From positions 558,001 through 622,000 of the forward strand of contig NZ_JAMXST010000004.1 of the NCBI RefSeq assembly GCF_024124905.1: 64,000 nt of DNA, in the 5' to 3' direction. Below the pieces are notes generated by a model. That model did not search any database. It was given only the letters and a program-made list of their open reading frames with translations, and was not told the DNA's origin. Positions within the stretch are counted from its first letter, which is position 1, and each line of letters begins with the position of its first letter. Position numbers and translations under genes: made by a program. This document shows positions 8,577 to 63,637 of this stretch, one piece after another. This stretch comes from Cellulosimicrobium cellulans (GTDB lineage Bacteria; Actinomycetota; Actinomycetes; Actinomycetales; Cellulomonadaceae).

Positions 8577-8615
8577 CGAAGCGCTTCGACGATGCGTTTC
8601 GACGAAGCGCTTCGA
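8577..8615 (+). promoter_or_regulatory. Three tandem 13-nt LacI-type operators
   Basis: CGAAGCGCTTCGA occurs at 8577-8589 and 8603-8615, with a degenerate copy CGATGCGTTTCGA exactly between them at 8590-8602. Each perfect copy holds the palindrome CGAAGCGCTTCG, of the CG-centred class bound by LacI-family sugar repressors. The array lies between the predicted promoter and the lacI gene, which suggests autoregulation. Confidence 0.75.
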
Positions 8616-42416: not shown

Positions 42417-44636
42417 CGGGACGAGGTACAGCGCGCCGAGCGGGGGCAGGCGCAGGGTCGCGGAGTGCGCGCGACCCTTCCACGGGACGGCCTCCGCCTC
42501 CACCTCGCCGAGGTTGCCGACGCCGGACCCGCCGTAGACCTCGGCGTCGGTGTTGAGCACCTCGCGCCACGCGCCGCCCGACGGCAGCGCGACGCGGTAG
42601 CCCTCGTGCGGCGTGCCGGCGAAGTTCACGACGACGGCGACCTCGCTGCCGTCGCGGCCGCGGCGGACGTAGGCGAGGACGTTGTGGTCGGCGTCGTCGG
42701 CGTCGAGCCACTCGAAGCCGGCGGGGTCGTGGTCGAGCTCCCACAGGGCCGGGGTCGCGCGGTACAGCGCGTTGAGGTCGCGCACGGCGCGCTGCACGCC
42801 CTGTCGGCCCGGGTCGGCCGCGAGGCCGTCCCAGTCGAGGGAGCGGCCCTCGTTCCACTCGGAGTGCTGGCCGATCTCGCTGCCCATGAAGAGGAGCTGC
42901 TTGCCGGGGTGCGACCACTGGTAGGCGAGGAACGCGCGCACGCCGGCGCGCTTCTGCCAGTCGTCGCCGGGCATCTTCCCGTAGAGCGAGCCCTTGCCGT
43001 GCACGACCTCGTCGTGGCTGATCGGCAGCACGAACTGCTCGGAGTAGGCGTAGACCATCGAGAACGTGATCTCGTGGTGGTGGTAGTGCCGGTTGATGGG
43101 CTCCTCGGCGACGTAGCGCAGGGAGTCGTTCATCCAGCCCATGTTCCACTTGAGCCCGAACCCGAGGCCGCCGGACGACGTCGGGCGGGTGACGCCAGGC
43201 CAGGCGGTGGACTCCTCGGCGATCATCATGACGCCGGGCGTGCGCCGGTAGGCGGTCGCGTTGGCCTCCTGGAGGAACGCGATGGCCTCGAGGTTCTCGC
43301 GCCCGCCGTGCACGTTGGGGTGCCACTGGCCGGGGCCGCGCGAGTAGTCGAGGTAGAGCATCGACGCGACGGCGTCGACACGGAGCGCGTCGACGTGGAA
43401 CTCCTCGAGCCAGTACGTCGCGTTGGCGACGAGGAAGTTGCGGACCTCGTTGCGCCCGAAGTCGAAGACGAACGTGCCCCAGTCGGGCTGCTCGCCGCGC
43501 AGCGGGTCGGCGTGCTCGTAGCAGGGCGTGCCGTCGAACCGGGCCAGCGCCCACTCGTCGCGCGGGAAGTGCGCGGGGACCCAGTCGACGACGACCCCGA
43601 CGCCGGCCGCGTGCAGGCGGTCGACGAGGTACCGGAAGTCGTCGGGGTGGCCGAACCGTGAGGTGGGCGCGTAGTAGCCCGTGACCTGGTAGCCCCACGA
43701 CCCGCCGAACGGGTGCTCGGCGACGGGCAGGAGCTCGACGTGCGTGAAGCCCTGCTCCACGACGTACGCGGTGAGCTGCTCGGCGAGGTCCCGGTACGAT
43801 AGCCCCTGGCGCCACGACCCGAGGTGGACCTCGTAGATGCTGAGGGGTTGCGTGTGCGGGTCGCGGGCGGCGCGCTCGGCGAGCCACGCGTCGTCGGTCC
43901 ACGCGAACTGCGAGTCGACCACGATGCTCGCCGTCGCGGGCGGCACCTCCGCGCCCTTGGCGAGGGGGTCGGCCTTCTGCCGCCACGAGCCGTCGGGACC
44001 GAGGATCTCGTACTTGTACCGCGCGCCCGCGCCGACGCCCGGGACGAACAGCTCCCAGACGCCGCTCGAGCCGAGCGAGCGCATCGGGTGCGTCGCGCCC
44101 CAGCCGTTGAAGTCGCCGATGACGCGGACCGCGCGCGCGTTGGGCGCCCACACGGCGAACGCGGTGCCGGTCGTGTCGCCGAGCGCGCTGGGGTACGTGC
44201 GCAGGTTGGCCCCCAGCACGCGCCACAGCTCCTCGTGCCGCCCCTCCCGGAGGAGGTGCAGGTCCACCTCGCCGAGCGTGGGCAGGAACCGGTAGGGGTC
44301 GTCGGCGGTCGTGGCCTCGTGGCCGTAGCGCGCCCGGACGCGGTAGTCGGGGGCGTGCCGGGTGCCGTCGGCGTCCTGGTGCACCGGGACGACGGCGGCC
44401 CACACGCCGTCCTGCTCGTGCGCCGCCGCGTGCTCGCCGTCGGTCGTGACGACGACGACCTCGTCGGCGAGCGGACGCAGGACCCGGACGACGGCGCGCG
44501 CGTCGTCGGCGTCGGGCGCGAGGTGCGGGCCGAGCACGGCGTGCGGGTCGAACGTGCGGCCCGCGGCCGCGGCGGCGAGCTCCTCCGCGGGCACGACGAC
44601 GGGCTGCGGGGCGGGGGATGCGGCGGACCCGGTCAT
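42405..44636 (-). CDS. glgB: 1,4-alpha-glucan branching enzyme
   Basis: 743 residues from the ATG at 44636 with AAAGG about 9 bases upstream. GlgB makes alpha-1,6 branches in glycogen. An N-terminal extension and N1 domain, a CBM48 domain ([20 protein letters not shown]) and a GH13 catalytic domain are visible: [24 protein letters not shown] with the nucleophile Asp at about 421, [14 protein letters not shown] with the acid/base Glu, and [14 protein letters not shown]. It lies 13 kb from its usual partners mak-treS-glgE, with a mannan locus between them, on the same strand as they are. It is divergent from the lacI gene at 44725. Confidence 0.96.
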
Positions 44637-44724
44637 GGGCCAACCTTTCCACGTCTGCGGCACCGGGACGCGACGGGCTCGCCGGGTGGTCGCAGTAGGC
44701 TCGCGACCTGGAGGAAGGAGGGCC

Positions 44725-45741
44725 GTGGCAAGGATCACCATCGCGGACATCGCGCGGGAGGCCGGGGTCTCGACGGGCGCGGTGTCGTACGCGCTGAACA
44801 ACCGGCCCGGCGTGTCGGAGGCGACCCGAGCCCGGATCCTGGGGATCGCGGCCGACCTGGGCTGGGCGCCGAGCTCGGCCGCGCGTTCTCTCTCCGGGGC
44901 ACGGACCGAGACTGTCGGACTGGTCCTGGCGCGCGACCCCGGGATGCTCGGGGTCGAGTCGTTCTACATGCAGTTCCTCGCGGGCATCGAGTCCGAACTG
45001 TCGAAGCGGTCGTACGCGCTGCTCCTCCAGGTGGTCCCGGACCAGGAGACCGAGCTGCGGGCCTACCGCGCGTGGCGCGCGGCACGTCGGGTCGACGGGG
45101 TGATCCTCGTCGACCCGAGCATCGACGACCCCCGGATCGCGATGTTCTCCGAGCCCGAGGCGCTCCCAGCCGTGGTGGTGGGGGACCCGGCGCTCGCGGG
45201 TGGTCTGCCGAGCGTGTGGACGGACGACGCTGCGGCGATGCGTGAGTCGGTGCGCTACCTGCACGCCGTCGGGCACCGCCGGATAGCCCGAGTCGCGGGC
45301 CTGGAGGGTTTCGGGCACACGGGGATCCGCGACGCGGCGTTCCGCGACGAGATCGCGGCGCTGGGCGCGGAGGGAGTGGTCGTGCGGACGGACTATTCGG
45401 CCGTCCAAGGGGCTGCGGTGACGCGGACGCTCCTCACGAGCGTGGACCGGCCGACGGGGATCATCTACGACAACGACGTCATGGCGGTCGCGGGACTGGG
45501 GGTCGCGAGCGAGATCGGTGTCCGCGTGCCGCAGGAGGTGTCGATGATCGCGTGGGACGACTCGCCGCTGTGCGAGGCGACGTTCCCGCGTCTCTCGGCG
45601 CTGAGCCACGACGTCACGCGCTACGGCGCACACGTCGCTCGCCGTCTGTTCGACCGGATCGCAGGTGAGGTCGGGGGGAGCTTCCTCGACTCGACTCCGA
45701 CGCTGCGCCCGCGGGGGACGACCGGACGTCCAGCGTCCTGA
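44725..45741 (+). CDS. LacI-family regulator of the mannan locus
   Basis: 338 residues from the GTG at 44725, with GGAGGAAGGAG just upstream. The HTH and hinge are [30 protein letters not shown] and [14 protein letters not shown]. The sensor domain contains [18 protein letters not shown] and [16 protein letters not shown]. It is followed by the importer operon, whose promoter region carries the operator at 45818-45830. It probably represses the importer operon and the secreted GH5 genes until a manno-oligosaccharide or mannose derivative binds, which is an inference from context. Confidence 0.93.
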
Positions 45742-45817
45742 TGCGCTTCAGAGCCTCGTCGCGCGAGGCTGTGTCTTGATATCGGTTCGTTACACACCGG
45801 GGTTGGACTTACGGAAA

Positions 45818-45830
45818 CTTAAGCGCTTCA
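45818..45830. promoter_or_regulatory. LacI-type operator before mannan importer operon
   Basis: CTTAAGCGCTTCA, whose reverse complement TGAAGCGCTTAAG is repeated exactly at 54976-54988 before the first secreted GH5 gene. It lies 81 bases before the binding-protein start and about 10 bases after TTGGAC (45803-45808), a possible -35 element. Confidence 0.75.
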
Positions 45831-45910
45831 CTAGTCGTGTCGCCAGTGATCGCCCGGGCAAGAGGAGCCCGTAGCGGGCGACGTCAACGACGACCAAGGA
45901 GTGGAACCCC

Positions 45911-47212
45911 ATGGCAAGGAAGCAGATCGCGGCCGTGCTGACTGTGACAGCGCTGACGCTGACGCTCGGTGCGTGCTCGAGCTCGAACGAGGGCGGCAGC
46001 GAGGATGGCGAGCTGTCGGGCACCATCACCGTCCTGACGAACCGCACGGACATCGTCGACACCGCGCTGCAGGACTACGCGGACCTGTTCCAGGCGAAGA
46101 ACCCGGGCGTGACGGTCGAGTTCGAGGCGATCACCGACTACGAGGGCGACGTCTCGATCCGTCTCAACACGCAGGACTACGGCGACGTGCTCCTCGTCCC
46201 GAACTCGGTGAGCAAGGACCAGCTCCCGCAGTTCTTCGAGCCCCTCGGCACGGTGGAGGAGCTCGGGCAGGAGTATCGCTTCATCAACGAGCAGGCCTAC
46301 GACGGCGACGTCTACGGGATCGCGACGTTCGGCACCGCGATGGGGTACGTCGTGAACACGAAGGTCTGGGAGGCGGCCGGGATCACGGAGCCGCCGACGA
46401 CGCCCGAGGCGTTCGTCGACGCGCTCGAGCAGATCGGCGAGAAGACCGACGCCGTCCCGTACTACACGAACTACACCGACGGCTGGCCCCTCACCCAGTG
46501 GCAGAACAACCAGGGGACGATCGCGGGGACCGACGCCGTGAGCATCCGTACGTCGCAGGACGCTCCGTGGTCCGACGGCAACGAGCAGTACGCGATCGAC
46601 GGCCTGCTGTACGACGTCGTCGCCGCAGGCGTCACGGAGGAGGACCCTACGACGACCAACTGGGAGGAGTCCAAGACCCTCCTCGGCACCGGCAAGATCG
46701 GCGCCATGGTGCTCGGCTCGTGGGCCGTGCCGCAGATGAAGGACGCGGCCGAGGCCGCCGGGGGGTCCGCGGACGACATCGACTTCTGGCCGATGCCGTG
46801 GCAGACCGAAGGCACGTTCTCCTCGACCGTCTCGGGCGACTACAAGCTCGCGATCTCGAAGCACTCCGAGAACAAGGAGGCTGCACGCGCCTGGGTCGAC
46901 TGGTTCCTGAACGAGTCGACGTTCGCCGCCGAGCAGGGCGGCATCTCGCCGGTCGTCGGTGCGGCGGCACCGGACAGCCTGGCCACGTTCGACGCCCTGG
47001 GCGTCAACCAGATCGAGCTCTCCCCGGCCCCTGCCGGTGAGGAGACGTGGGACAACGACATCAGCAACGGGGCGGAGATCGACCTCTGGGGCGACAAGTA
47101 CCGCAAGCAGCTGGTCGACGTCGCCCGCGGCGCCGCCGACGGCGACAAGGAGTCCTTCTTCGCCGACCTCAACTCCCGCTGGGCGGCCGCGCGCGCGAAC
47201 GTCGTCGGCTGA
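45911..47212 (+). CDS. CUT1 ABC importer, sugar-binding lipoprotein (mannan locus)
   Basis: 433 residues. The signal peptide ends in the lipobox LTLGACSSS (lipid Cys at about 22), then an acidic linker and a family 1 solute-binding fold (GTITVLTNRTDIVDTALQDY, YGIATFGTAMGYVVNTKVWE, SGDYKLAISKHSENKEAARA). AAGGAG precedes the ATG. From the neighbouring beta-mannosidase and mannanases the ligand is probably a beta-manno-oligosaccharide. A 15-bp hairpin follows before the permease genes. Confidence 0.92.
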   Translation: MARKQIAAVLTVTALTLTLGACSSSNEGGSEDGELSGTITVLTNRTDIVDTALQDYADLFQAKNPGVTVEFEAITDYEGDVSIRLNTQDYGDVLLVPNSVSKDQLPQFFEPLGTVEELGQEYRFINEQAYDGDVYGIATFGTAMGYVVNTKVWEAAGITEPPTTPEAFVDALEQIGEKTDAVPYYTNYTDGWPLTQWQNNQGTIAGTDAVSIRTSQDAPWSDGNEQYAIDGLLYDVVAAGVTEEDPTTTNWEESKTLLGTGKIGAMVLGSWAVPQMKDAAEAAGGSADDIDFWPMPWQTEGTFSSTVSGDYKLAISKHSENKEAARAWVDWFLNESTFAAEQGGISPVVGAAAPDSLATFDALGVNQIELSPAPAGEETWDNDISNGAEIDLWGDKYRKQLVDVARGAADGDKESFFADLNSRWAAARANVVG

Positions 47213-47230
47213 CGCAGGAGCCCTGGTTCG

Positions 47231-47266
47231 CGTGAGGCCCCCGGCCGCCCCGCCGGGGGCCTCACG
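47231..47266 (+). terminator. Intercistronic hairpin after mannan binding-protein gene
   Basis: A perfect 15-bp stem (47231-47245 with 47252-47266), 6-nt loop, between binding-protein and permease genes. It probably sets a higher level of binding protein than permease, like 11100-11141. Confidence 0.7.
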
Positions 47267-47291
47267 CCCGTCCGACCGAAATGAGCATGAC

Positions 47292-48230
47292 ATGGCTGTG
47301 ACCAGTCCGACCGTGGCGACTCCGACCGAGCCGCGCAAGCGGAGTGCTACGTCCCGACCGCCGAGGCGACGGTCCGGGTCGCTCACCCCGTGGCTGTTCC
47401 TCGTCGTCCCGCTCGGGCTGCTGCTCGTGTTCACCTACCTGCCGGTGGCGAACATGATCTGGTACAGCTTCACGTCGTGGGACGGCCTCGATGCGGTGAA
47501 GGAAGGCGTCGGGTTCACGAACTACGTCGACATCTTCACGCGACCCGAGCTGTTCCGGGTCTTCTTCGTCAGCCTCTACTACCTGGTCGGCGCTCTCGTC
47601 CAGCTCGCGCTGGCGCTCTACTTCGCGACGATCCTCAGCTTCAGCACGCGGTTCCGTAACTTCTTCAAGGGCGTCATCTTCTTCCCCTACCTCCTGAACG
47701 GCGTGGCGATCGGCCTCGTCTTCCTCTACTTCTTCCGCCCGGACGGGACGTTGGACGCTCTGCTGGGGATCGTGGGCGTGCAGGAGACGCCGCACTGGCT
47801 CGGAGACCCGTCGATCGTCAACTACTCGCTCGCGGGCACGTCCGTATGGCGCTACATGGGCCTGAACTTCGTGCTGTTCCTCGGCGCCATCCAGGCGATC
47901 CCGGGCGACGTGTACGAGGCCGCGGACCTCGACGGCGCGACGTCGTGGCAGAAGTTCCGCTACATCATCTTTCCGGGTATCAAGCAGATCGTCGGTCTGT
48001 CCCTGATCCTCGCCGTCTCGGGTGCGCTCTCGGTCTTCGAGATCCCCTTCATCATGACGAAGGGCGCGAACGGTTCCGAGACGTTCGTCATCCAGACCGT
48101 CGACACGGCGTTCCGGTACTCCAAGGTCGGTCTCGCCTCCGCGATGGCCGTCGTGCTGCTGATCATCGTCCTCGTGATCAGCGCGATCCAACGAAAGTTC
48201 TTCCCGGACGAGAAGGGAGACCTGGTATGA
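47292..48230 (+). CDS. CUT1 ABC importer permease, MalF type (mannan locus)
   Basis: 312 residues from the ATG at 47292; the ribosome binding site is poor. A basic N-terminus (RKRSATSRPPRRRSG) precedes six membrane helices. The EAA loop reads YEAADLDGATSWQKFR with IIFPGIKQ. It overlaps the next permease gene by 4 bases (ATGA). Confidence 0.92.
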   Translation: MAVTSPTVATPTEPRKRSATSRPPRRRSGSLTPWLFLVVPLGLLLVFTYLPVANMIWYSFTSWDGLDAVKEGVGFTNYVDIFTRPELFRVFFVSLYYLVGALVQLALALYFATILSFSTRFRNFFKGVIFFPYLLNGVAIGLVFLYFFRPDGTLDALLGIVGVQETPHWLGDPSIVNYSLAGTSVWRYMGLNFVLFLGAIQAIPGDVYEAADLDGATSWQKFRYIIFPGIKQIVGLSLILAVSGALSVFEIPFIMTKGANGSETFVIQTVDTAFRYSKVGLASAMAVVLLIIVLVISAIQRKFFPDEKGDLV

Positions 48231-49144
48231 GCGCCCCCACCGCACCTGCGCCGACCCGGATCACCGCAGCGGACAAGATGCGCGGGGCAGCCGCTCGGTT
48301 CTCGAGGGGCGTCGCGCCCGTCGCGGGGCCGCTGGCCACGACGGCGAAGTACATCAGTCTCGTCGTCGCGTGCGCGGCAGCCGTCGTCCCGATCCTCACG
48401 ATCTTCTTCGCGGCCTTCAAGTCCCGCGAGGAGTACGTGACGACAGGTCCGCTCGACCTTCCCCAGAACTGGTTCAACTTCTCGAACTTCACGAGGGCCT
48501 TCACCGACAGCGACATGCTCGCGGGCTTCGTGAACACCATGATCATCCTTGTCGTCGCACTCGCCGGGACGATCCTCATCGGCACCATGACCGCGTACGC
48601 CGTCGACCGGTTCGACTTCCGTGGCAAGAAGGTCGTCATGGCAGGGTTCCTGCTGGCGACGCTCGTCCCGGCGGTCACCACGCAGGTCGCGACGTTCCAG
48701 ATCATCAACGGGTTGGGGCTCTTCAACACCCGCTGGGCCGCGATCGTGCTCTTCATGGGCACGGACATCATCGCGATCTACATCTTCCTGCAGTTCATGC
48801 GTTCGATCCCGCGCTCGCTCGACGAGGCCGCGATGCTCGACGGCGCCAACCGCGTCACCATCTACGCCCGGATCATCTTCCCGCTGCTCAAGCCGGCGAT
48901 CGCGACCGTCGTCATCATCAAGGGCATCGCGATCTACAACGAGTTCTACATCCCCTTCCTCTACATGCCGTCGAGCAAGCTCGGCGTGATCTCGACGACC
49001 CTGTTCCGGTTCAAGGGGCCGACGGGGTCGGAGTGGGAGGTCATCGCGGCCGGCACGATCCTCGTGATCGTCCCGACCCTGATCGCCTTCCTCCTCCTCC
49101 AGCGACACATCTACAACGGCCTGACCGCAGGAGCCACCAAGTGA
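48227..49144 (+). CDS. CUT1 ABC importer permease, MalG type (mannan locus)
   Basis: 305 residues with six membrane helices. The EAA loop is DEAAMLDGANRVTIYAR with IIFPLLKP, and the end is RHIYNGLTAGATK. No ATPase gene is present in the locus, so a shared ATPase must serve. The stop overlaps the beta-mannosidase GTG (GTGA). Confidence 0.92.
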   Translation: MSAPTAPAPTRITAADKMRGAAARFSRGVAPVAGPLATTAKYISLVVACAAAVVPILTIFFAAFKSREEYVTTGPLDLPQNWFNFSNFTRAFTDSDMLAGFVNTMIILVVALAGTILIGTMTAYAVDRFDFRGKKVVMAGFLLATLVPAVTTQVATFQIINGLGLFNTRWAAIVLFMGTDIIAIYIFLQFMRSIPRSLDEAAMLDGANRVTIYARIIFPLLKPAIATVVIIKGIAIYNEFYIPFLYMPSSKLGVISTTLFRFKGPTGSEWEVIAAGTILVIVPTLIAFLLLQRHIYNGLTAGATK

Positions 49145-51660
49145 CACGTACCGCCACTCCCGTCCCCACGACGACCCGTCGCGAGCTGCACGACGGCTGG
49201 ACGGTGAGCGCCGTCGCGGGGCCCGTCCCCGCGGGGACGGTCGTGTTCGACGTCCCGGCGACGGTCCCGGGGAGCGTGCACACCGACCTGCTCGCCGCGG
49301 GCCTGATCGTCGACCCGTACCTCGACGACCACGAGCGGCTGCTCGCGTGGATCGGCCGGACCGACTGGGTGTACACCACCCGCTTCGCGTGGGCGCCGGA
49401 CGGGCACGAGCGGCACGACCTCGTCTTCGACGGCCTCGACACCGTCGCGGAGGTCCGGCTCAACGGGACGGTGGTGGGCTCGACGGCGAACATGCACCGC
49501 ACCTACCGGTTCGACGTCGGTCCGCTGCTCGTCGAGGGCGAGAACGAGCTCGTGGTGCGGTTCGCCGCGCCCGTCCCGTACGCGGACCGGCAGAGCCTTC
49601 TCCTCGGCTACCGTCCCCAGGTCAACCAGCACCCCTTCAACGCGATGCGCAAGATGGCGTGCAGCTTCGGGTGGGACTGGGGTCCCGACACCGCGACGTC
49701 CGGAATCTGGCGTCCCGTCCGACTCGAGTCGTGGTCCGTCGCGCGGCTCGCACAGGTGCGCGTGCACGCCTCCGTCGCCGAGCCCGCCTCGACGAACGGT
49801 GCCGAGGCCGCCGCTGGCCGGGTGCGCGTCGTGGCCGAGGTCGAGCGCTCCGGCTCGGGAGGCACGGGGCTGACGCTGGCGGCGACCGTCGCGGGCGTCC
49901 GGGCCCAGGTCCCGACGGACGGCGACCGGGCGGAGGTCGACGTCGTCGTGCCCGAGGTCGATCTGTGGTGGCCCCGGACCCACGGGGACCAGCCGCTGTA
50001 CGCCGTCGACGTCGAGCTGCGTGCGGGTGCGGACGTGCTCGACACCTCGGCGCGCCGTGTCGGCTTCCGGACGGCCGCGCTCGAGATCGAGCCCGACGAC
50101 GACGGGACCTCGTTCCGCTTCGTGGTCAACGGCGTCCCCGTCTGGGTGCGTGGCGCGAACTGGATCCCGGACGACGCCTTCCCGCACCGCGTGACACGCG
50201 AGAGGTACGCGGCGCGCATCGACCAGGCAGTCTCGGCGAACCTGAACCTGTTGCGCGTGTGGGGCGGCGGGATCTACGAGTCGGACGACTTCTACGATCT
50301 GTGCGACGAGCGTGGCGTCCTCACGTGGCAGGACTTCCTCTTCGCCTGCGCGGCCTACGCCGAGGAGGACCCGCTACGGTCGGAGGTCGAGGCGGAGGTG
50401 CGTGACAACGTCGCCCGTCTCGGGCACCACGCGTCGCTCGTGCTCTGGAACGGCAGCAACGAGAACATCTGGGGCTTCCACGACTGGAGCTGGCGACAGC
50501 GCCTCGACGGGCGCACGTGGGGGCTGGGGTACTACACGGAGCTGCTCCCGCGCGTCGTCGCGGAGCTCGATCCCGACTGCGCGTACACGCCGTCGAGCCC
50601 GTGGTCCGGCAGCCTGGAGGTGCACCCGAACGACCCGCGACACGGCTCGATGCACGAGTGGGAGCTGTGGAACCGGCAGGACTGGCCGCACTACCGGGAC
50701 ACGGTGCCACGCTTCATGGCGGAGTTCGGGTGGCAGGGTCCGCCGGCGTGGTCGACCCTCACCCGGGCGATCAGCGACGACCCGCTCACCCCTGAGTCAC
50801 CCGGGATGCTCGTCCACCAGAAGGCGATGCAGGGCAACGACAAGCTCACCGACGGGCTCGTCGCGCACGTCCCGCTGCCCGACGCGATGGAGGACTGGCA
50901 CTGGGCGATGTCCTGGAACCAGGCGATCGCGGTCCGGACCGCGATCGAGCACTACCGCTCGTGGTCCCCGCGGTGCATGGGGGCGGTCGTGTGGCAGCTC
51001 AACGACTGCTGGCCGGTGACCTCGTGGGCCGCGGTCGACGGTGACGGCCGCGAGAAGCCGCTCCTGGTCGCGCTGCGGCACGCCTTCGCCGACCGGCTGC
51101 TCACCGTGCAGCCGCGGGGCGAGGCGGGCGAGCTCGTGGTCGCCCTCGTGAACGACAGTGCGGAGGGCTGGCGGGGCGACCTCGTCCTGCGGCGGATCCG
51201 GTACGACGGCGTCGAGATCGAGGCGGTCAAGGTCCCGGTCGACCTCGCGCCGCGCACCACGACGACGATCCCCGTGCCGGCGGACGTCGCCCGGGCGCAG
51301 GACGCGGCGGGCGAGCTCCTGGTGGCCTCCCTCGGGCACGAGAGCGCGACGTGGTTCTACACCGAGCCTCGCGACAGCGCGCTGAGCAGCCCCGCGCTCC
51401 ACGTCGAGGTGACCTCGACGGAGGACGGGGCGCGGGTACGCGTCACGACCGACACCGTCGTGCGGGGGCTGTCGCTGCTCGCTGACAAGGTCCACCCGGA
51501 CGCCGTGGTCGACGACGCGCTCGTCGACCTGCTGGCGGGCGAGAGCGTGACCTTCCACGTGACGGCCCCGACCACGCTGGACAGGTCCGCGCTCGCCGAC
51601 CCGCGGGTGCTGCGCAGCGTCAACCAGCTCGTGTCGCGCCGGCCGGCGGTGTCGGCATGA
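49141..51660 (+). CDS. GH2 beta-mannosidase
   Basis: 839 residues from the GTG at 49141 overlapping the permease stop. It removes beta-linked mannose from manno-oligosaccharides. The GH2 sugar-binding domain comes first (WTVSAVAGPVPAGTVVF, DGLDTVAEVRLNGTVVG). NQHPFNAMRKMACSFGWDWG is typical of beta-mannosidases rather than beta-galactosidases. The acid/base Glu lies in WNGSNENIWG (about 441) and the nucleophile Glu in MAEFGWQGPP (about 528). There is no signal peptide, so it is cytoplasmic and acts on imported sugars. It overlaps the AGE gene (ATGA). Confidence 0.93.
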   Translation: MTRTATPVPTTTRRELHDGWTVSAVAGPVPAGTVVFDVPATVPGSVHTDLLAAGLIVDPYLDDHERLLAWIGRTDWVYTTRFAWAPDGHERHDLVFDGLDTVAEVRLNGTVVGSTANMHRTYRFDVGPLLVEGENELVVRFAAPVPYADRQSLLLGYRPQVNQHPFNAMRKMACSFGWDWGPDTATSGIWRPVRLESWSVARLAQVRVHASVAEPASTNGAEAAAGRVRVVAEVERSGSGGTGLTLAATVAGVRAQVPTDGDRAEVDVVVPEVDLWWPRTHGDQPLYAVDVELRAGADVLDTSARRVGFRTAALEIEPDDDGTSFRFVVNGVPVWVRGANWIPDDAFPHRVTRERYAARIDQAVSANLNLLRVWGGGIYESDDFYDLCDERGVLTWQDFLFACAAYAEEDPLRSEVEAEVRDNVARLGHHASLVLWNGSNENIWGFHDWSWRQRLDGRTWGLGYYTELLPRVVAELDPDCAYTPSSPWSGSLEVHPNDPRHGSMHEWELWNRQDWPHYRDTVPRFMAEFGWQGPPAWSTLTRAISDDPLTPESPGMLVHQKAMQGNDKLTDGLVAHVPLPDAMEDWHWAMSWNQAIAVRTAIEHYRSWSPRCMGAVVWQLNDCWPVTSWAAVDGDGREKPLLVALRHAFADRLLTVQPRGEAGELVVALVNDSAEGWRGDLVLRRIRYDGVEIEAVKVPVDLAPRTTTTIPVPADVARAQDAAGELLVASLGHESATWFYTEPRDSALSSPALHVEVTSTEDGARVRVTTDTVVRGLSLLADKVHPDAVVDDALVDLLAGESVTFHVTAPTTLDRSALADPRVLRSVNQLVSRRPAVSA

Positions 51661-52937
51661 CGGCGCCGACGATCGACCGCCGACCGCGTGGCGGTGTGCG
51701 CGACGAGCTCGCCTGGACCGAGCGCGAGACGCACCTGGCGTGGCTCGACGCGCACACGCGGTCGCTGCTCGGGTTCGGGCGTCGCGTCGTCGCCCCGGGC
51801 GGAGGAGCGGCCTACCTCGACGGGTCCGGGACCCCCGACCCGGAGGCAGGCGTCCAGACGTGGATCACGTGCCGGACCGTCCACGTCTACGCGCTCGGTG
51901 CGATGCTGGGCGTGCCCGGGTGCGAGCCGGTCGCGCGCGGGGCGCTCGACGGCCTGCTGGGACCGCTGCATGACGCCGAGCACGGCGGGTGGTTCCACGC
52001 CCTCGACGCGCAGGGCGCGCCCGACCTCGGCGCAGGCAAGTCCGCCTACGACCACGCGTTCGTCCTGCTCGCCGCGTCGAGCGCGACCCTGGCCGGCCTG
52101 CCGGGTGCGCTGGCCCTGCTCACCGACGCGTGCTCGGTGTTCCTCGAGCGCTTCTGGGACGACGCGACCGGGCTCGTGGTCGACACGTGGGACGCGTCGT
52201 TCACCGTCCTCGACCCGTACCGGGGCCTCAACGCAAACATGCACGCGGTCGAGGCGATGCTCGCCGTCGCCGACGCCACCGGGGACGTCGCGTGGCGCGA
52301 CCGCGCCGCGCGCGTCTCCCGGCTCGTCGTGCGGCTCGCCGGGGACCACGACGGGCGGCTGCCCGAGCACTTCGACGTCACGTGGACGCCGGACCTGGAG
52401 CTCAACGCCGACCGGCCCGCCGACCCGTTCAAGCCCTACGGGGCGACCGTCGGGCACGGCCTCGAGTGGTCCCGGCTGCTCCTGCACCTCGAGGTCGCGC
52501 TGGGCACGCTCGCGCCGTCCGACCTAAGCCCGACTGCGAGCGTGCTGTTCGACCGCGCGGTGGCCGACGGCTGGGCCGTGGACGGCGCGGACGGGTTCGT
52601 CTACACGACCGACTGGTCCGGCGCGCCCGTCGTGCGCGAGCGCATGCACTGGGTCGTCGCCGAGGCGATCGCCGCCGCGGACGCCTTGCACCGACGGACG
52701 GGTGACGCCCGCTACGCCGACCTGTACGCGACCTGGTGGGACTACGCGGTGACCTTCGTGGTGGACCACGACGGGGGATCGTGGCACCACGAGCTCGACC
52801 CGTCGAACCGCCCTGCGGGGATCACCTGGCCCGGCAAGCCCGACCTCTACCATGCGGTCCAGGCGACGCTCCTGCCGCGGCTCCCGCTCGGCCCGTCGAT
52901 CGCGCGCGCCGTCCACGACGGGCAGGTGGCCTCGTGA
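51657..52937 (+). CDS. AGE-family sugar isomerase, probably D-mannose isomerase
   Basis: 426 residues, starting within the beta-mannosidase stop. The (alpha/alpha)6 fold of the N-acylglucosamine 2-epimerase family shows the conserved His-rich helices CRTVHVYALGAML, KSAYDHAFVLLAAS, LNANMHAVEAMLAV, GHGLEWSRLLLHLE and MHWVVAEAIAAAD. Family members include mannose isomerase (mannose to fructose), cellobiose 2-epimerase and the GlcNAc epimerase. Here a mannose-to-fructose isomerase fits best, because the beta-mannosidase precedes it and a fructokinase-like domain follows at once. Cellobiose/mannobiose epimerase is the main alternative. Confidence 0.88.
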   Translation: MTAPTIDRRPRGGVRDELAWTERETHLAWLDAHTRSLLGFGRRVVAPGGGAAYLDGSGTPDPEAGVQTWITCRTVHVYALGAMLGVPGCEPVARGALDGLLGPLHDAEHGGWFHALDAQGAPDLGAGKSAYDHAFVLLAASSATLAGLPGALALLTDACSVFLERFWDDATGLVVDTWDASFTVLDPYRGLNANMHAVEAMLAVADATGDVAWRDRAARVSRLVVRLAGDHDGRLPEHFDVTWTPDLELNADRPADPFKPYGATVGHGLEWSRLLLHLEVALGTLAPSDLSPTASVLFDRAVADGWAVDGADGFVYTTDWSGAPVVRERMHWVVAEAIAAADALHRRTGDARYADLYATWWDYAVTFVVDHDGGSWHHELDPSNRPAGITWPGKPDLYHAVQATLLPRLPLGPSIARAVHDGQVAS

Positions 52938-54820
52938 CGCGCTTCCTCGTGGTCGGCGAGGCTCTCGTCGACATCGTCTCCGACGGTCCGGGAGCCACCC
53001 GAGACCTGCCCGGCGGAAGCCCCGCGAACGTCGCGCTCACGCTCGGCCGGCTCGGTCGTGAGGTGGTGCTCGCCACGGCGCTCGCCCCCGACGAGCGCGG
53101 CGCCCTGGTCCGTGACTGGCTCGCCGCGAGCGACGTGGAGGTGGACGCGCACGTGCCGTCGACGGGCCGGACGTCGGCGGCGACGGTGTCCCTGGACGCC
53201 CAGGGGCAGGCGACGTACGCCTTCGACCTCGCGTGGGACCTCGGGCAGGTGGAGCTCGGCGACGCGGAGGTCGTTCACGTCGGGTCCGTCGCGGCGGTGC
53301 TGTCTCCGGGCGCCGACGTGGTCCGGGACGTCGTCCGCCGGGCGCGTTCCTCCGCCGTCGTCTCGTACGACCCCAACGTGCGCCCCGCTCTCGTCGACGA
53401 CCCCGCGGCGGTCCGGGCCCGCGTCGAGGAGCTCGTCGCGCTCGCCGACGTCGTCAAGGTGAGCGACGAGGACCTCGCGTGGTTCGCCCCGGGGGCCGAC
53501 CCGCTCGACGTCGCGCGCGGCTGGTCGGCGTGGGGCGCGGCCCTCGTCGTCGTGACGCGTGGGGGCGACGGCGCGACGATCGTCCGCCATGACGGCCGTC
53601 TCGTCGAGGTCCCGGGCCGTGCGGTCGACGTCGTCGACACCGTCGGCGCGGGCGACACGTTCACGGGGGCGCTGCTCGACGCGCTCGCGGCGCGCGGGGT
53701 GCGCGGCCCGGGAGGCGCGGACGTCCTGCGCCGACTGTCGGACGCGGCGGTGCGGACCGCGGCACGGTCCGCGGCGGTCGCCGCGTCGGTCACGGTGTCC
53801 CGTGCAGGCGCGAACCCGCCGACGCGGGCCGAGCTGCGCGCGGTCGAGGGCCCGGTGCGGCCCGCGCCGTTCGCCGGGGCGCCCGTGACCGGCATGACCT
53901 GGGGATGGACGGGCGTGCGCGGGGCCTGGACCGGTCCGGGCGCCGAGCGTTCCATGGACGAGCTCCGAGACCTGGGCGTGGACTGGGTCGCCGTGACGTT
54001 CTCGGCGAAGCAGGACACGCCGCAGTCGACCACGGTCCGCTACGGCGACGAGCCGACGGTGACCGACGACGAGGTGCGTGCCGCGATCCGGGCGGCGAAG
54101 GCTCGGGGCTGGAAGGTGTGCCTCAAGCCGGTGGTCGACTCCGCGGACGGGACATGGCGAGCGTTCATCGGCTTCTTCGACGAGGACGTGCCGGGCGAGC
54201 CGTCGTGGGACGAGTGGTTCGCGTCGTACACGGAGTTCGTCGTGCACCACGCGCGCATCGCGGCGGAGGAGGGCGCGGAGATGTTCTGCGTCGGGTGCGA
54301 GATGGTGCGGGCCGACGGGCGCGACGCACAGTGGCGGGCCGTCGTCGCGGCCGTGCGCGAGGTCTACGGCGGCCTGGTGACCTACAACTGCGACAAGTAC
54401 CAGGAGGACCGCGTCACCTGGTGGGACGCGGTCGACGTGATCGGGAGCTCGGGCTACTACCCGGCCGGGACGTGGGAGCACCACCTCGACCGGATCGAGG
54501 CCGTCGTCGCGCGCGAGGACAAGCCGTTCGTCTTCCTGGAGGCGGGCTGCCCGAGCCGCGAGGGCTCCCCGGCGCGCCCGAACGACTGGAACCTCGCGGG
54601 GTCGCCGTCGGGTGCGGCGCAGGCGGACTGGCTCGCCGAGATGTTCGCCGCCTGCGCCCGTCGGCCCTGGGTCTCCGGGTACTTCCTCTGGGACTGGCCG
54701 TCGCCGCTGTACGCGGAGTCCGAGGCCGCGGCGAACGACGACTACTGCATGTACGGCAAGCCGGGCGCGGAGGTCGTCCGGCGCGCCTACGAGGAGCTGC
54801 GGACGCGCTCGCGCGACTGA
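52934..54820 (+). CDS. Fusion of PfkB-family sugar kinase and GH113-type beta-mannanase
   Basis: 628 residues in one uninterrupted frame from the GTG at 52934, which overlaps the isomerase stop (GTGA). Residues 1 to about 300 form a complete PfkB kinase of fructokinase type: FLVVGEALVDIVSD, GGSPANVALTLGRLG, VVSYDPNVRPAL and the catalytic loop DTVGAGDTFTGALLDAL (about 235). After a short linker, residues about 321-628 match GH113 mannanases: WGWTGVRGAWTGPG, RGWKVCLKPVVDSADGTWRA, EMFCVGCEMVRADGRDAQWR, and the end KPFVFLEAGCPSREGS with SGYFLWDWPSP. There is no signal peptide, so it is cytoplasmic. It would cut imported manno-oligosaccharides and phosphorylate the fructose made from mannose by the isomerase. 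It is the last gene of the importer operon, followed by a 23-bp hairpin. Confidence 0.83.
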   Translation: MTRFLVVGEALVDIVSDGPGATRDLPGGSPANVALTLGRLGREVVLATALAPDERGALVRDWLAASDVEVDAHVPSTGRTSAATVSLDAQGQATYAFDLAWDLGQVELGDAEVVHVGSVAAVLSPGADVVRDVVRRARSSAVVSYDPNVRPALVDDPAAVRARVEELVALADVVKVSDEDLAWFAPGADPLDVARGWSAWGAALVVVTRGGDGATIVRHDGRLVEVPGRAVDVVDTVGAGDTFTGALLDALAARGVRGPGGADVLRRLSDAAVRTAARSAAVAASVTVSRAGANPPTRAELRAVEGPVRPAPFAGAPVTGMTWGWTGVRGAWTGPGAERSMDELRDLGVDWVAVTFSAKQDTPQSTTVRYGDEPTVTDDEVRAAIRAAKARGWKVCLKPVVDSADGTWRAFIGFFDEDVPGEPSWDEWFASYTEFVVHHARIAAEEGAEMFCVGCEMVRADGRDAQWRAVVAAVREVYGGLVTYNCDKYQEDRVTWWDAVDVIGSSGYYPAGTWEHHLDRIEAVVAREDKPFVFLEAGCPSREGSPARPNDWNLAGSPSGAAQADWLAEMFAACARRPWVSGYFLWDWPSPLYAESEAAANDDYCMYGKPGAEVVRRAYEELRTRSRD

Positions 54821-54964: not shown

Positions 54965-54988
54965 TACCTTCGACATGAAGCGCTTAAG
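54965..54988 (+). promoter_or_regulatory. -10 element and LacI-type operator of secreted GH5 gene
   Basis: TACCTT (54965-54970) is a plausible -10. The operator TGAAGCGCTTAAG (54976-54988) follows at the expected start of transcription, and CGCT just after it makes a second overlapping AGCGCT core (54987-54992). The 13-base operator is identical to the reverse complement of 45818-45830. Confidence 0.7.
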
Positions 54989-55100
54989 CGCTGACGGTGT
55001 CATCGGGCCACGACGGGCCGGATGAGGGTTCGCGGACGAACCCGACGACGACGTCCACCGAGCAGGCCGGGCGACGACGCCCGGTTCGGGAGGAAGATCG

Positions 55101-56372
55101 ATGAGACGACTGTTCGCCATCGCCCTGGGCGCGGTGCTCGCCCTGCTCGCCGTGCCGGCGCTCGCGCAGGGGGCGAGCGTCGCGAGCGACGGGTTCTCCG
55201 TCCAGGACGGGAGGATCTACGACGCGAACGGCAACCGCTTCGTGCCGGTCGGCGTCAACCACGCGCACGCCTGGTACCCGTCGCAGACGCAGTCCTTCGC
55301 CGACATCCGCGCCGCCGGCGCGAACACCGTCCGCGTCGTGCTGTCGGGCGGCCGGTACGGGACGAGCTCGGCGGCCGACGTGAGCGCCGTGGTCGAGCGC
55401 TGCAAGCAGAACCAGCTCGTGTGCATCCTCGAGAACCACGACACGACGGGCTACGGCGAGGACGGCAGCGCCCGGTCGCTCGCGAGCGCGGCGCAGTACT
55501 GGACCAGCATCGCGTCGGTCCTGCGCGGCCAGGAGCGGTACGTGATGATCAACATCGGCAACGAGCCCTTCGGCAACTCCGGCTTCCAGAGCTGGACGAC
55601 GGACACGATCGCGGCGATCCGGACCCTGCGCGCGGCGGGCCTCGACCACACGCTCGTCGTGGACGCCCCGAACTGGGGACAGGACTGGTCGTTCACCATG
55701 CGCGACAACGCCCCGACGGTCGCGGCCGCGGACGGGAACGTGGTCTTCTCCGTCCACATGTACGGCGTCTTCGACACCGGGGCGGAGGTGCGCGCGTACC
55801 TCGACTCCTTCACGAGCCGAGGGCTGCCGATCATGGTCGGCGAGTTCGGTGACAACCACTCGGACGGGAACCCGGACGAGGCCACGATCATGAGCTACAC
55901 GCGGTCGCAGGGGATCGGGATGCTCGGCTGGTCGTGGTCCGGCAACGGGGGCGGCGTCGAGTACCTGGACATGGTGAACGGGTTCTCCGCGAGCTCGCTC
56001 ACGCCGTGGGGGCAGCGGTTCGTCCACGGCGCCGACGGGCTCAGGGCCCGCAACGCGCCCGTGGCCTCGGTGTACGGGGGCGACGGCGGCGATGGAGACG
56101 GCGGAGCCGGTACGGCACCCAACGGGTACCCGTACTGCGCGAGCGCGTCGTCGGACCCGGACGGGGACGGGTGGGGCTGGGAGAGCAGCGCGTCGTGCGT
56201 GGTGCGCGGCTCCTCCGCGGACACGGGTTCCGGCGGTGGCTCCGGGAGCGGGAGCACGGCACCGAACGGGTACCCGTACTGCGCGAGCGCGTCGTCGGAC
56301 CCGGACGGGGACGGGTGGGGCTGGGAGAACAGCGCCTCGTGCGTCGTGCGCGGCTCGTCCGCCGACCGCTAG
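55101..56372 (+). CDS. Secreted GH5 beta-mannanase with two CBM10-like modules
   Basis: 423 residues; GAGGAAGAT lies before the ATG. Signal peptide 1-24 (LFAIALGAVLALLAVPALAQG). The GH5 domain, probably subfamily 8 mannanase, covers about 25-320: GVNHAHAWYPSQTQSF, LENHDTTGYGE, MINIGNEPFGN with the acid/base Glu at about 155, VFSVHMYGVFD, and MVGEFGDN with the nucleophile Glu at about 248. After a Gly/Asp linker come two nearly identical CBM10-like modules (NGYPYCASASSDPDGDGWGW, then CVV), joined by a Gly/Ser linker. It should cut mannan outside the cell to supply the importer. It has its own promoter with the mannan operator. Confidence 0.88.
   Translation: MRRLFAIALGAVLALLAVPALAQGASVASDGFSVQDGRIYDANGNRFVPVGVNHAHAWYPSQTQSFADIRAAGANTVRVVLSGGRYGTSSAADVSAVVERCKQNQLVCILENHDTTGYGEDGSARSLASAAQYWTSIASVLRGQERYVMINIGNEPFGNSGFQSWTTDTIAAIRTLRAAGLDHTLVVDAPNWGQDWSFTMRDNAPTVAAADGNVVFSVHMYGVFDTGAEVRAYLDSFTSRGLPIMVGEFGDNHSDGNPDEATIMSYTRSQGIGMLGWSWSGNGGGVEYLDMVNGFSASSLTPWGQRFVHGADGLRARNAPVASVYGGDGGDGDGGAGTAPNGYPYCASASSDPDGDGWGWESSASCVVRGSSADTGSGGGSGSGSTAPNGYPYCASASSDPDGDGWGWENSASCVVRGSSADR
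56121..56358 (+). repeat. Near-identical tandem CBM10 coding repeats
   Basis: The module at 56121-56214 is repeated at 56265-56358 (offset 144 bases) with very few base differences, such as AGAGCAGC against AGAACAGC. The near identity at silent sites suggests a recent duplication or gene conversion. Confidence 0.85.
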
Positions 56373-56478: not shown

Positions 56479-57825
56479 ATGAGTAGGAACAGCACACGAC
56501 AGCTCCGTACCCGGGCGACGTCGGTCCCGGCGTACGTCGCTGCGCTCGCCCTCGCCGGGTCGGGAGCGCTTGCGCTCGCCGGTCCGGCAGCCGCCGACGA
56601 GGCGACCACGGACGGTCTGCACGTCGTCGACGGTCGGCTCGTCGAGGCGGACGGGAGCGACCTCGTCCTCCGCGGGATCAACCACGCGCACACCTGGTAC
56701 ACCCACGAGTTCCAGGCGTTCGAGGACATCAAGGGCACGGGCGCCAACGCGGTGCGCGTCGTCCTGTCCAGCGGCGACCAATGGACCCGCAACGACCCGG
56801 CGGACGTTGCGCGCGTCGTCCGCGAGTGCGACGCGAACCGGCTCGTGTGCGCCCTGGAGGTGCACGACACGACGGGCTACGGGGACGAGTACGCGCCCGC
56901 CGCGGTGTCGCTCGACCGCGCTGTCGACTACTGGGAGGACCTGTACCCGACGCTCGCCGGAACGGAGGACAGGGTCCTCGTCAACATCGGCAACGAGCCG
57001 ATCGGCAACGGTCCGGTCGCCGACGAGTGGGCGGCGCGGACGTCGGCCGCGGTCCAGCGCCTGCGGGACATCGGGTACGAGCACACGATCGTCGTCGACG
57101 CCCCGAACTGGGGCCAGGACTGGTCGCGGACGATGTACTCCCAGGCGCGGCAGGTGTTCGACGCCGACCCCGACGCGAACGTCGTGTTCTCCGTCCACAT
57201 GTACGAGGTGTACGGCGACGGCGCGGTGGTCACGGACTACCTGGAGCACTTCGTCGACGCCGGACTGCCGCTGATCGTCGGCGAGTTCGGCCCGGCGCAC
57301 TACGGTAACGACGTCGACGAGGACACCATCCTCGCCGAGTCGCGGCGCCTCGGCCTCGGCTGGTTCGGGTGGTCCTGGAGCGGCAACAGCGGTGGCGTGG
57401 AGGACCTGGACCTCGTCCAGGGCTTCGACCCGGCCGCTCCGTCCCCCTGGGGCGAGCGCCTGATCTCCGGCCCGGACGGCATCGCCGAGACGTCGCACGA
57501 GGCATCGGTCTTCGCGAGCCGCGCGGACGGATGCTCGGCCGAGCTGGAGATCCAGTACCTGTGGCCGGGTGGCTACCAGGGTCAGGTGCGGGTGGAGTTC
57601 GACGGCGAGCCCGTCTCGACGTGGTCCACCTCGTGGCGCGTGCCCGCGGGCAGCGAGCTCGTGCAGACCTGGCACGGTGCGCTCTCCGTGGACGACGGGA
57701 TCGCGACGGTCACCGCCGAGTCGTGGAACGCGCGCGTGCCGGCCGGCGGGACCATCACCTACGGTTTCTCGGGCCGAGGCGACGCTCCGGTGCTGGCACC
57801 GGTCGTCGACTGCTCGGCAGGCTAG
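56479..57825 (+). CDS. Secreted GH5 beta-mannanase with CBM2 module
   Basis: 448 residues. Signal peptide about 1-40 (Arg-rich start, ALALAGSGALALAGPAAADE). The GH5 domain is a clear paralogue of the preceding enzyme: GINHAHTWYTHEFQAF, LEVHDTTGYGDE, VNIGNEPIGNG with the acid/base Glu at about 173, VVDAPNWGQDW, IVGEFGPAHYG with the nucleophile Glu at about 269. The C-terminal 100 residues are a CBM2-type binding module (CSAELEIQYLWPGGYQGQVR, then WNARVPAGGTITYGFSGRG, closing Cys) that binds cellulose or related polysaccharide. It differs from its neighbour in the type of binding module. Confidence 0.88.
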   Translation: MSRNSTRQLRTRATSVPAYVAALALAGSGALALAGPAAADEATTDGLHVVDGRLVEADGSDLVLRGINHAHTWYTHEFQAFEDIKGTGANAVRVVLSSGDQWTRNDPADVARVVRECDANRLVCALEVHDTTGYGDEYAPAAVSLDRAVDYWEDLYPTLAGTEDRVLVNIGNEPIGNGPVADEWAARTSAAVQRLRDIGYEHTIVVDAPNWGQDWSRTMYSQARQVFDADPDANVVFSVHMYEVYGDGAVVTDYLEHFVDAGLPLIVGEFGPAHYGNDVDEDTILAESRRLGLGWFGWSWSGNSGGVEDLDLVQGFDPAAPSPWGERLISGPDGIAETSHEASVFASRADGCSAELEIQYLWPGGYQGQVRVEFDGEPVSTWSTSWRVPAGSELVQTWHGALSVDDGIATVTAESWNARVPAGGTITYGFSGRGDAPVLAPVVDCSAG

Positions 57826-59571: not shown

Positions 59572-61365
59572 TCACGCCGGGTCGTGCACCACGAGCCAGT
59601 AGAAGTCGCGCGACCCCCACGTCATGACGACGCGCCCGTCGTCGTCGACGGCCGGGAAGTGCGCCCCGCCGAACACGTCGGTGAGCGTCGCCCCGGGGTG
59701 GTCGGGCAGGTGCACCGCGGCCGAGCGCGCGGTCGCGGAGAGGTTCGCGACGCACAGGATCGTCTCGGCGTCGGTCCGGCGCAGGAACGCGAGGATCGAC
59801 TCGTTGTCGCACTCGAGCGCGACGAAGTCGCCCGTGCCGAACGCCTTGTGGCGGCGCCGGACCTTGAGCATGCCGTGCACCCAGTGCAGCAGGGACGTCG
59901 ACTGCTCGAGCTGCGCCTCGACGTTGACGTAGCCGTAGTGGTGCACGAGCGACTGCACGAGCGGCAGGTACACCTTGCCGGGGTCGGCGGTCGAGAACCC
60001 GGCGTTGCGGTCGGGCGTCCACTGCATGGGGGTGCGCACCGCGTCGCGGTCGGGCAGCCAGATGTTGTCTCCCATCCCGATCTCGTCGCCGTAGTAGAGG
60101 CACGGGCTGCCCGGCAGGGAGAGCAGGAGCGCGTGGGCGAGCTCGACCTCCTTGCGCGAGTTGTCGAGCAGGGGAGCGAGCCGACGGCGGATGCCGACGT
60201 TCGCGCGCATGCGCGGGTCGGGCGCGTACCACCCGTACATCGACGCGCGCTCCTCGGTGGACACCATCTCCAGGGTGAGCTCGTCGTGGTTGCGCAGGAA
60301 CGTGCTCCACTGCGCGCCGGGCGGGATGTCGGGCGTGTCGGCGAGGATCTCCAGGACCTGGTTCGCGCGCTGGTCGCGGATCGCGTAGTAGATGCGGGGC
60401 ATCACGGGGAAGTGGAAGCACATGTGGCACTCGGGCTCGTCCTCGGTGCCGAAGTAGTCCACGACCTCGCGCGGCCACTGGTTCGCCTCGGCGAGCAGGA
60501 TGCGTCCCGGGAACTCGGCGTCGACCATGCGCCGCACGCGCCGCAGGAACTCGTGCGTCTGGGGCAGGTTCTCGCAGTTGGTGCCCTCGGCCTCGTAGAG
60601 GTACGGCACGGCGTCGAGGCGGAACCCGTCGACGCCCATCTGCAGCCAGAACCGCGCGACGTCGAGCATCGCGTCGGCGACGCGCGGGTTCTCGAAGTTG
60701 AGGTCGGGCTGGTGGGAGAAGAACCGGTGCCAGAAGAACTGGCGGCGCACGGGGTCGAACGTCCAGTTGGACGTCTCGGTGTCGACGAAGATGATGCGCG
60801 CGTCCTGGTAGCGCGTGTCGTCGTCGCTCCACACGTAGAAGTCGCCGTACGGGCCCTCGGGGTCGGCGCGCGACGCCTGGAACCAGGGGTGCTGGTCGCT
60901 CGTGTGGTTCATGACGAGGTCGATGACGACGCGCATCCCGCGGGCGTGCGCCTCGCTGACGAGCTCGGCGAAGTCCGACGTCGAGCCGTACTGCGGCGCG
61001 ATCGCGGTGTAGTCGGACACGTCGTAGCCGCCGTCGCGCAGGGGCGACGGGTAGAACGGCGGCAGCCACAGCGCGTCGATGCCGAGCCACTGGAGGTAGT
61101 CGAGGCGGTCGATGAGGCCCCGCAGGTCGCCCGTCCCGCTGCCGTCGGAGTCGGAGAACGCGCGGACGATCACCTCGTAGAACACCGCCGTGCGGTACCA
61201 GTCCGGGTCGTCGGACAGCCCGGGGCGCGCGTCGACGGGCGCCGTCGGCTGGCGCCGGGGCGGGAGCGCCGCGACGGGGACCGGCGCGGTGATGGGCGGC
61301 ACGGGGGCGGGGCCGGCAGCGGGACCGCGCACGGGGACCGGTGCAGCGTCGCGAGGGAACGTCAT
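59572..61365 (-). CDS. treS: Trehalose synthase
   Basis: 597 residues from the ATG at 61365, which overlaps the glgE stop; the frame stays open upstream only as antisense of glgE. TreS interconverts maltose and trehalose. The GH13 pattern is typical: [51 protein letters not shown] with the nucleophile Asp, [11 protein letters not shown] with the acid/base Glu, and [13 protein letters not shown]. The first 45 residues are Pro/Ala-rich and probably unstructured. It feeds maltose to Mak. Confidence 0.95.
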
Positions 61366-63467: not shown

Positions 63468-63637
63468 ACGCACAACGTATCGAGGCCCGCGGGGGGCAGG
63501 CACCTGGGAGCGGGCTCGGCAGGCGTCGACGAGGTGCGGTGTCGGGCGTGGCGCCGGGGTGAGAGTTCACGCAAGCGTGACGTGCGTGTGACACCGCGAG
63601 GGTGTGCACCGGCCTCGGCCTGCGTAGTCTCGTCCCC

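Follow-up and report, generated by a model that had tools for sequence, protein, structure and literature searches.

A PfkB-type kinase joined in frame to a GH113 hydrolase in a putative beta-mannan gene cluster of Cellulosimicrobium cellulans and its relatives

The Clade 1 enzymes of glycoside hydrolase family 113 (GH113) that have been solved, among them BaMan113A of Bacillus (7dv7), an enzyme of Amphibacillus (5ylh) and AaManA (4cd6/3civ), are single-domain proteins. A 2022 survey of 511 GH113 enzymes describes the vast majority as single-domain, with a CBM8 in Ardenticatena as the one exception, and it portrays the Clade 1 enzymes as mostly devoid of signal peptides and thought to process imported oligomers, in an endo or an exo mode that the sequence does not tell (PMC9032380). 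Here we describe a gene of Cellulosimicrobium cellulans in which a PfkB-type kinase, probably a fructokinase, stands in front of a GH113 hydrolase in one reading frame. It lies in a stretch of 64,000 nucleotides (NZ_JAMXST010000004.1, positions 558,001-622,000 of the forward strand), which we call the window and whose coordinates are used throughout. The GH113 half shares with the Clade 1 enzymes the fold and the Glu positions that are altered in solved variants, and is about 50% identical to 7dv7 and 5ylh and 43% identical to 4cd6, a likeness to Clade 1 that is seen by alignment. The fused protein departs from the usual architecture, a single GH113 domain with or without a carbohydrate-binding module (CBM), by the kinase in front, and it does so in 11 genomes.

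The kinase half has equally well described counterparts, as the PfkB fructokinases of Mycobacterium marinum (7cf8/7fca, about 40% identity) and Brucella (4u7x/4wjm, 35-37%) share its whole fold and its motifs. These solved chains are 303-316 residues long and consist of the kinase alone, whereas in the fusion the GH113 half follows the C-terminal helix. Ribokinase-family fusions exist by name in NCBIfam, as kinase/aldolase (NF047869, NF041633) and kinase/adenylyltransferase (HldE, NF008454), and they match the kinase half weakly; compared by these names only, the partner is there an aldolase or an adenylyltransferase and here a glycoside hydrolase. Fusions of PfkB kinases to other enzymes are thus known, and it is the glycoside-hydrolase partner that appears to be new. 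Fusions of GH32 enzymes to fructokinases may exist, and if so the kinase-hydrolase kind is not wholly new. A first-pass annotation, made from the letters of the window, knew of no characterised fusion of this kind, and within the scope of the matches listed in the open-access literature this holds, no PfkB-GH113 fusion being among them. The words kinase and fusion are absent from the main text of the GH113 survey (PMC9032380).

The fused gene and its parts are as follows.

52934..54820, plus strand: fused gene, PfkB-type kinase (probable fructokinase) and GH113 hydrolase, 628 aa (single open frame, Pfam, 11 genomes)
52934..53839, plus strand: kinase half, residues 1-302 (Pfam, PDB 7cf8, motif DTVGAGDTF)
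53840..53887, plus strand: linker, residues 303-318, about 16 aa (alignment of 11 fusions)
53888..54817, plus strand: GH113 half, residues 319-628 (Pfam, PDB match, conserved Glu)

The frame starts with GTG and ends with TGA at 54818-54820, with no internal stop on the plus strand between 52934 and 54820, and its first 4 bases are also the last 4 of the isomerase gene that precedes it (51657-52937). The PfkB profile (PF00294) matches residues 6-296 (E 1.4e-36, 126.8 bits against a curated cut-off of 25.8, profile positions 6-298 of 302), and the GH113 profile (PF22612) is matched in its whole length, positions 1-289 of 289, by residues 321-609 (E 1.3e-134, 448.5 bits against a curated cut-off of 27). 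The first-pass annotation had proposed a single frame of 628 codons joining a complete PfkB kinase to a hydrolase of GH113 type, and the open frame and the profiles bear it out on both halves. The stop or frameshift near 53,840-53,900 by which it might have fallen is not there, its motif GGSPANV is found within GGSPANVA at residues 27-34, and its spacer of about 20 residues has to be shortened to about 16.

The nearest solved protein of the kinase half is the M. marinum fructokinase 7cf8 (E 4.1e-60), and that of the GH113 half is BaMan113A, 7dv7 (E 2e-111). The kinases of nine unfused relatives stop 2-14 residues past the same 'PPTRAEL'-like end at which the fused linker begins, and the kinase half is therefore complete. 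Its second motif, DTVGAGDTF at residues 235-243, contains D241, which we take to be the catalytic Asp of the GAGD motif and which is kept in all ten complete fusions and in 17 of 17 unfused kinase rows. In the other half E456 and E536, presumably the acid/base and the nucleophile of the retaining GH113 mechanism, align with positions that are Ala in the solved variants 7dvj and 5yli, and, like D241, are present in every one of the 10 complete fusions. The pooled ratio of nonsynonymous to synonymous differences (pN/pS, 45 pairs of 10 fusions) is 0.41 for the kinase, 0.28 for GH113 and 0.51 for the linker, which with 5 of its 16 columns invariant among the ten complete fusions is the least constrained part of the protein. 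Both halves are under purifying selection, and both look functional.

A match to PF22612 was found in 55 of the 221 genomes of the family; one of these (G028) was left out for its merely partial match of 27.6 bits, and the other 54 carry GH113 in full or nearly full length. Eleven of the 54 have the kinase-GH113 fusion in frame, so that the relatives in which the first-pass annotation would have looked for it do contain it, in five genera of one actinobacterial family (four genomes of the own genus, two of them of one species, one each in genera g11 and g19, three in g44 and two in g45). At all 11 loci the reading frame continues through the junction, to the stop in ten and up to a contig end inside GH113 in one, and the spacing from kinase to GH113 is 42-48 bases. 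A further genome of the window's species carries the fusion at 98%, and among all fusions the identity of the kinase half falls to 67%. The other 43 carriers of GH113 in the family do without the fusion. The 54 loci were mapped with wide flanks in 40 cases and with flanks of 1.5 kb in 14 (less than 1 kb upstream in L041 and L050), and at all 14 short-flank loci GH113 is preceded at a short distance by an in-frame stop.

Wider samples, which overlap one another, were searched with the fused protein as query at E 1e-90 or better, with three candidates scored per genome. The order sample gave a match in 27 of 396 genomes, four of them fused (all of the same family) and 23 with GH113 only; the class sample in 13 of 394, one fused (G000, which is also the only fused one of the phylum sample), 11 with GH113 only and one with the kinase only; and the phylum sample in 4 of 396, three of them with GH113 only. 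No fusion was thus found outside the family in the sampled genomes of its order, class and phylum. Among plasmid records 11 were matched; in none did the match extend over 80% of the fused query, and in the ten listed it is confined to the GH113 half. Separate GH113-like stretches lie in ten Enterococcus plasmid records (where the rows listed annotate them as hypothetical proteins) and in a 2.7-Mb plasmid of Paenibacillus cellulosilyticus, and 10 of these 11 are predicted to be conjugative. We also noted a genome of genus g44 (G165) that is unlike its three fused relatives, having a 77%-identical isomerase (L166, C1:1299521-1300747) with no GH113, GH2 or kinase match within 17 kb.

The fused gene is the last of a cluster of importer, GH2, isomerase and fusion genes, and two GH5 mannanase-like genes follow downstream.

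44362..45741, plus strand: LacI-family regulator (extent of the open reading frame, with the true start further in because the helix-turn-helix begins at residue 126; Pfam LacI and Peripla_BP_3)
45817..45832, no strand: LacI-type operator-like site 5' of the importer genes (exact AAGCGCTT at 45821)
45911..47212, plus strand: extracellular sugar-binding protein of an ABC importer (Pfam SBP_bac_1)
47292..48230, plus strand: ABC permease 1, probable start inside the open reading frame 46959-48230 (Pfam BPD_transp_1)
47846..49144, plus strand: ABC permease 2 (extent of the open reading frame; the true start is probably near 48230; Pfam BPD_transp_1 at residues 243-419)
49141..51660, plus strand: GH2 beta-mannosidase-like protein, 839 aa (PDB beta-mannosidase 5n6u, E 1.6e-135)
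51657..52937, plus strand: AGE/YihS-type sugar isomerase, D-mannose isomerase-like (Pfam GlcNAc_2-epim; NCBIfam ManIsomPseudo; PDB NAG isomerase, sulfoquinovose isomerase and YihS)
54978..54992, no strand: second operator-like site, preceding the GH5 genes (AAGCGCTT at 54978)
55101..56372, plus strand: GH5 beta-mannanase-like protein with CBM10 matches (Pfam; PDB beta-mannanase 1bqc, E 1e-112)
56479..57825, plus strand: GH5 beta-mannanase-like protein with CBM2 (Pfam; PDB 1bqc, E 1.3e-119)

The GH2 and isomerase genes overlap by 4 bases, as do the isomerase and the fused gene, and the order importer-GH2-isomerase-kinase::GH113 is kept in 10 of the 11 fusion genomes. The Pfam and PDB matches of the GH2, isomerase, importer and GH5 neighbours agree with the mannan-type setting given by the first-pass annotation, and the cluster reads as a beta-mannan regulon with presumably secreted mannanases, oligosaccharide import and intracellular breakdown. 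We consider it quite probable that the fused protein is a bifunctional cytoplasmic enzyme of single origin, the halves of which work independently of each other on imported manno-oligosaccharides and on fructose. The C-terminal GH113 half would trim the imported manno-oligosaccharides, yielding mannose or short manno-oligosaccharides in an endo or exo mode that is not readable from the sequence; GH113 and GH2 would release mannose, the isomerase would convert mannose to fructose, and the N-terminal kinase half would turn fructose into fructose-6-phosphate. That the kinase takes fructose we infer from its likeness to 7cf8 and 4wjm and from the adjoining isomerase. Since the product of GH113 is not the expected substrate of the kinase, the halves are unlikely to pass a compound directly from one to the other, and because they would share no intermediate we favour independent halves held at a one-to-one ratio. 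The first-pass annotation suggested a fixed stoichiometry, pathway enzymes held together or one domain sensing the substrate of the other as possible benefits; in our view the gain, if any, would be fixed one-to-one expression and co-location, and not the passing on of a shared intermediate.

As for the origin of the fusion, 6 of the family's 29 unfused wide-flank loci (G035, G089, G171, G177, G182 and G205) have a separate GH113 gene immediately after GH2, with an overlap of 4 bases between the two genes in G089. Among 20 hand-chosen isomerase loci there are 8 in which the isomerase adjoins a kinase that is not fused. Three unfused clusters of the same family (L179 in G205, L180 in G171 and L103 in G089) have the same importer, GH2 and GH113 as the fusion cluster, and in G205 and G171 the isomerase-kinase pair stands in the same cluster as GH2-GH113; they differ from it in that kinase and GH113 each have their own gene or, in G089, that the kinase is absent. 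The simplest history would be that an isomerase-kinase pair was inserted once into a beta-mannan operon, between its GH2 and GH113 genes, after which the kinase lost its stop and the kinase frame ran on into GH113. The fusion is probably an ordinary case of adjacent genes becoming one. Trees were made from 53 GH113 and 37 kinase loci, hand-picked and with possibly a few duplicates among them, by quick searches with support from the approximate likelihood-ratio test (SH-aLRT). The fused kinases fall into a single clade (SH-aLRT 98), which joins its sister group with 89; four of the five members of that group (G018, G023, G239 and G235; the fifth is G032) are shown to adjoin an isomerase gene. 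The trees are compatible with a single fusion event, and the fusion probably arose once within the family.

Several observations weigh against a bifunctional enzyme with this origin and these substrates. The unconstrained GH113 tree unites the fused sequences with the unfused GH113 of G089 in one clade (99), and G089, nested inside it (81), may represent a later split or loss of the fusion; in favour of a single origin, constraining the fused GH113 to one clade is not rejected by the approximately unbiased test (AU, p 0.348). The kinase half reaches 130.9 bits with the NCBIfam fructokinase model NF006957, below the equivalog cut-off of 450, and the isomerase reaches 442.4 bits with the D-mannose isomerase model ManIsomPseudo, below the cut-off of 600. 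The first-pass annotation placed the two halves at the first and last cytoplasmic steps of mannan use, which fits the homology of GH113, GH2, isomerase and kinase and is weakened by these two scores. In G232 the fusion (L105, 7495-9375) has two LacI-type regulator genes as neighbours and, on the opposite strand, a GH43 gene not far off, but neither GH2 nor isomerase adjoins it, a match to each lying on another contig (L184); GH2 and isomerase are thus not obligatory neighbours of the fusion.

Finally, the fused protein gives a confident two-domain AlphaFold model, which could mean a closer coupling of the halves than we favour. The model was built from an alignment of 47 rows (10 fusions, 17 unfused kinases and 20 unfused GH113, with the truncated fusion of G197 left out), and has a mean predicted local distance difference test (pLDDT) of 91.8 and a predicted template modelling score (pTM) of 0.87. 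Its kinase half superimposes on the solved fructokinases 4wjm (Z 42.6), 7fca (Z 40.2) and 7cf8 (Z 40.0), and its other half has the GH113 fold, with Z 44.8 and a root-mean-square deviation of 1.5 over 312 aligned residues to 7dv7 (VIA-align). Among the best 50 matches listed for each structure search, no solved chain aligned to both halves.

Other explanations have to be weighed against independent halves with some benefit from their fusion. That a sequencing or assembly error joined two genes has practically no probability, as the same in-frame junction is found in 11 genomes, the open frame in 11 assemblies rules out an artefact or a frameshift, and nothing was found in its favour. A physical coupling, in which the ligands of the kinase (ATP, fructose) or its oligomeric state alter GH113 or the reverse, or in which the fusion seeds an assembly with GH2 and the isomerase, would be in line with the pTM of 0.87, with a linker that the model shows as ordered (pLDDT 88 at residues 301-310 and 91 at 311-320), with the constant spacing of 42-48 bases and with the fact that 9 of the 11 invariant positions specific to the fusions lie in the kinase. 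Only 10 of the 47 rows in the model alignment span both halves, however, shared ancestry alone may account for the fusion-specific positions, the linker is the part under least constraint, and the fusion of G232 stands away from GH2 and isomerase, and we hold coupling to be rather unlikely. A rigid enzyme in which fructose or ATP at the kinase controls cleavage by GH113, so that the capacity for phosphorylation feeds back on oligosaccharide breakdown, seems improbable to us, and we know of no other kinase-glycoside hydrolase enzyme with control between its domains.

A neutral fusion, in which the long bifunctional protein is simply tolerated after the loss of a stop between genes transcribed together, differs from our preferred interpretation of a beneficial two-enzyme protein on the benefit alone, and is possible, even if we rather doubt it. 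Fusions are common, with about 6% of prokaryotic genes as a figure cited in PMC5702140; expression was probably already coupled, because the adjoining genes overlap by 4 bases, and the 43 unfused carriers manage without. Against this, the fusion has lasted with its frame intact through the divergence of five genera, down to 67% identity in the kinase, a persistence that is qualified by G089 if this is a copy that lost it. It is also conceivable that an internal translation start, or proteolysis, leaves the two halves as separate proteins in the cell, and that the fusion exists at the level of the gene only. An in-frame GTG in the linker, with a moderate estimated ribosome-site energy of -6.4 kcal/mol, is present in 3 of the 11 fusions (G000, G164 and G006), and G232 has another candidate start at -6.6; the only linker start common to all 11 is the ATG of GMTWGW, with -1.7 to -6.5 in contrast to -10.1 for the unfused gene of G089. 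By this crude estimate the 11 fusions share no internal start that has a strong ribosome site, and we find separation very unlikely.

The fusion supports a link between the isomerase-fructokinase route for mannose and the intracellular breakdown of beta-mannan in actinobacteria, and adds an architecture unreported in the 2022 survey. Related genera contain both the fused and the unfused form and so provide a natural test of what the fusing of pathway enzymes buys, and if both activities are borne out, the protein would be a ready-made two-enzyme tool for mannan conversion.

Some minor features of the window remain to be mentioned. An apparent extra N-terminal domain on GH2, about 257 residues long in the open reading frame 48370-51660, was rejected, as it is an out-of-frame translation of permease DNA; matches to these residues had also turned up beside GH113 in L097 and L098. 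The sequence AAGCGCTT, at sites that may resemble LacI operators, occurs exactly at 8579, 8605, 45821 and 54978 of the window. The palindromes at 8579 and 8605, which are 26 bases apart and share the core with the sites of the mannan cluster, are possibly a further target of a LacI-type regulator. A G+C-rich inverted repeat, GGCCCCCGGC...GCCGGGGGCC, lies at 47213-47290 between the gene of the binding protein and those of the permeases, and could raise the level of the binding protein over that of the permeases. Further downstream, at 61362-63503 on the minus strand, there is by Pfam a GlgE-type maltosyltransferase-like gene.

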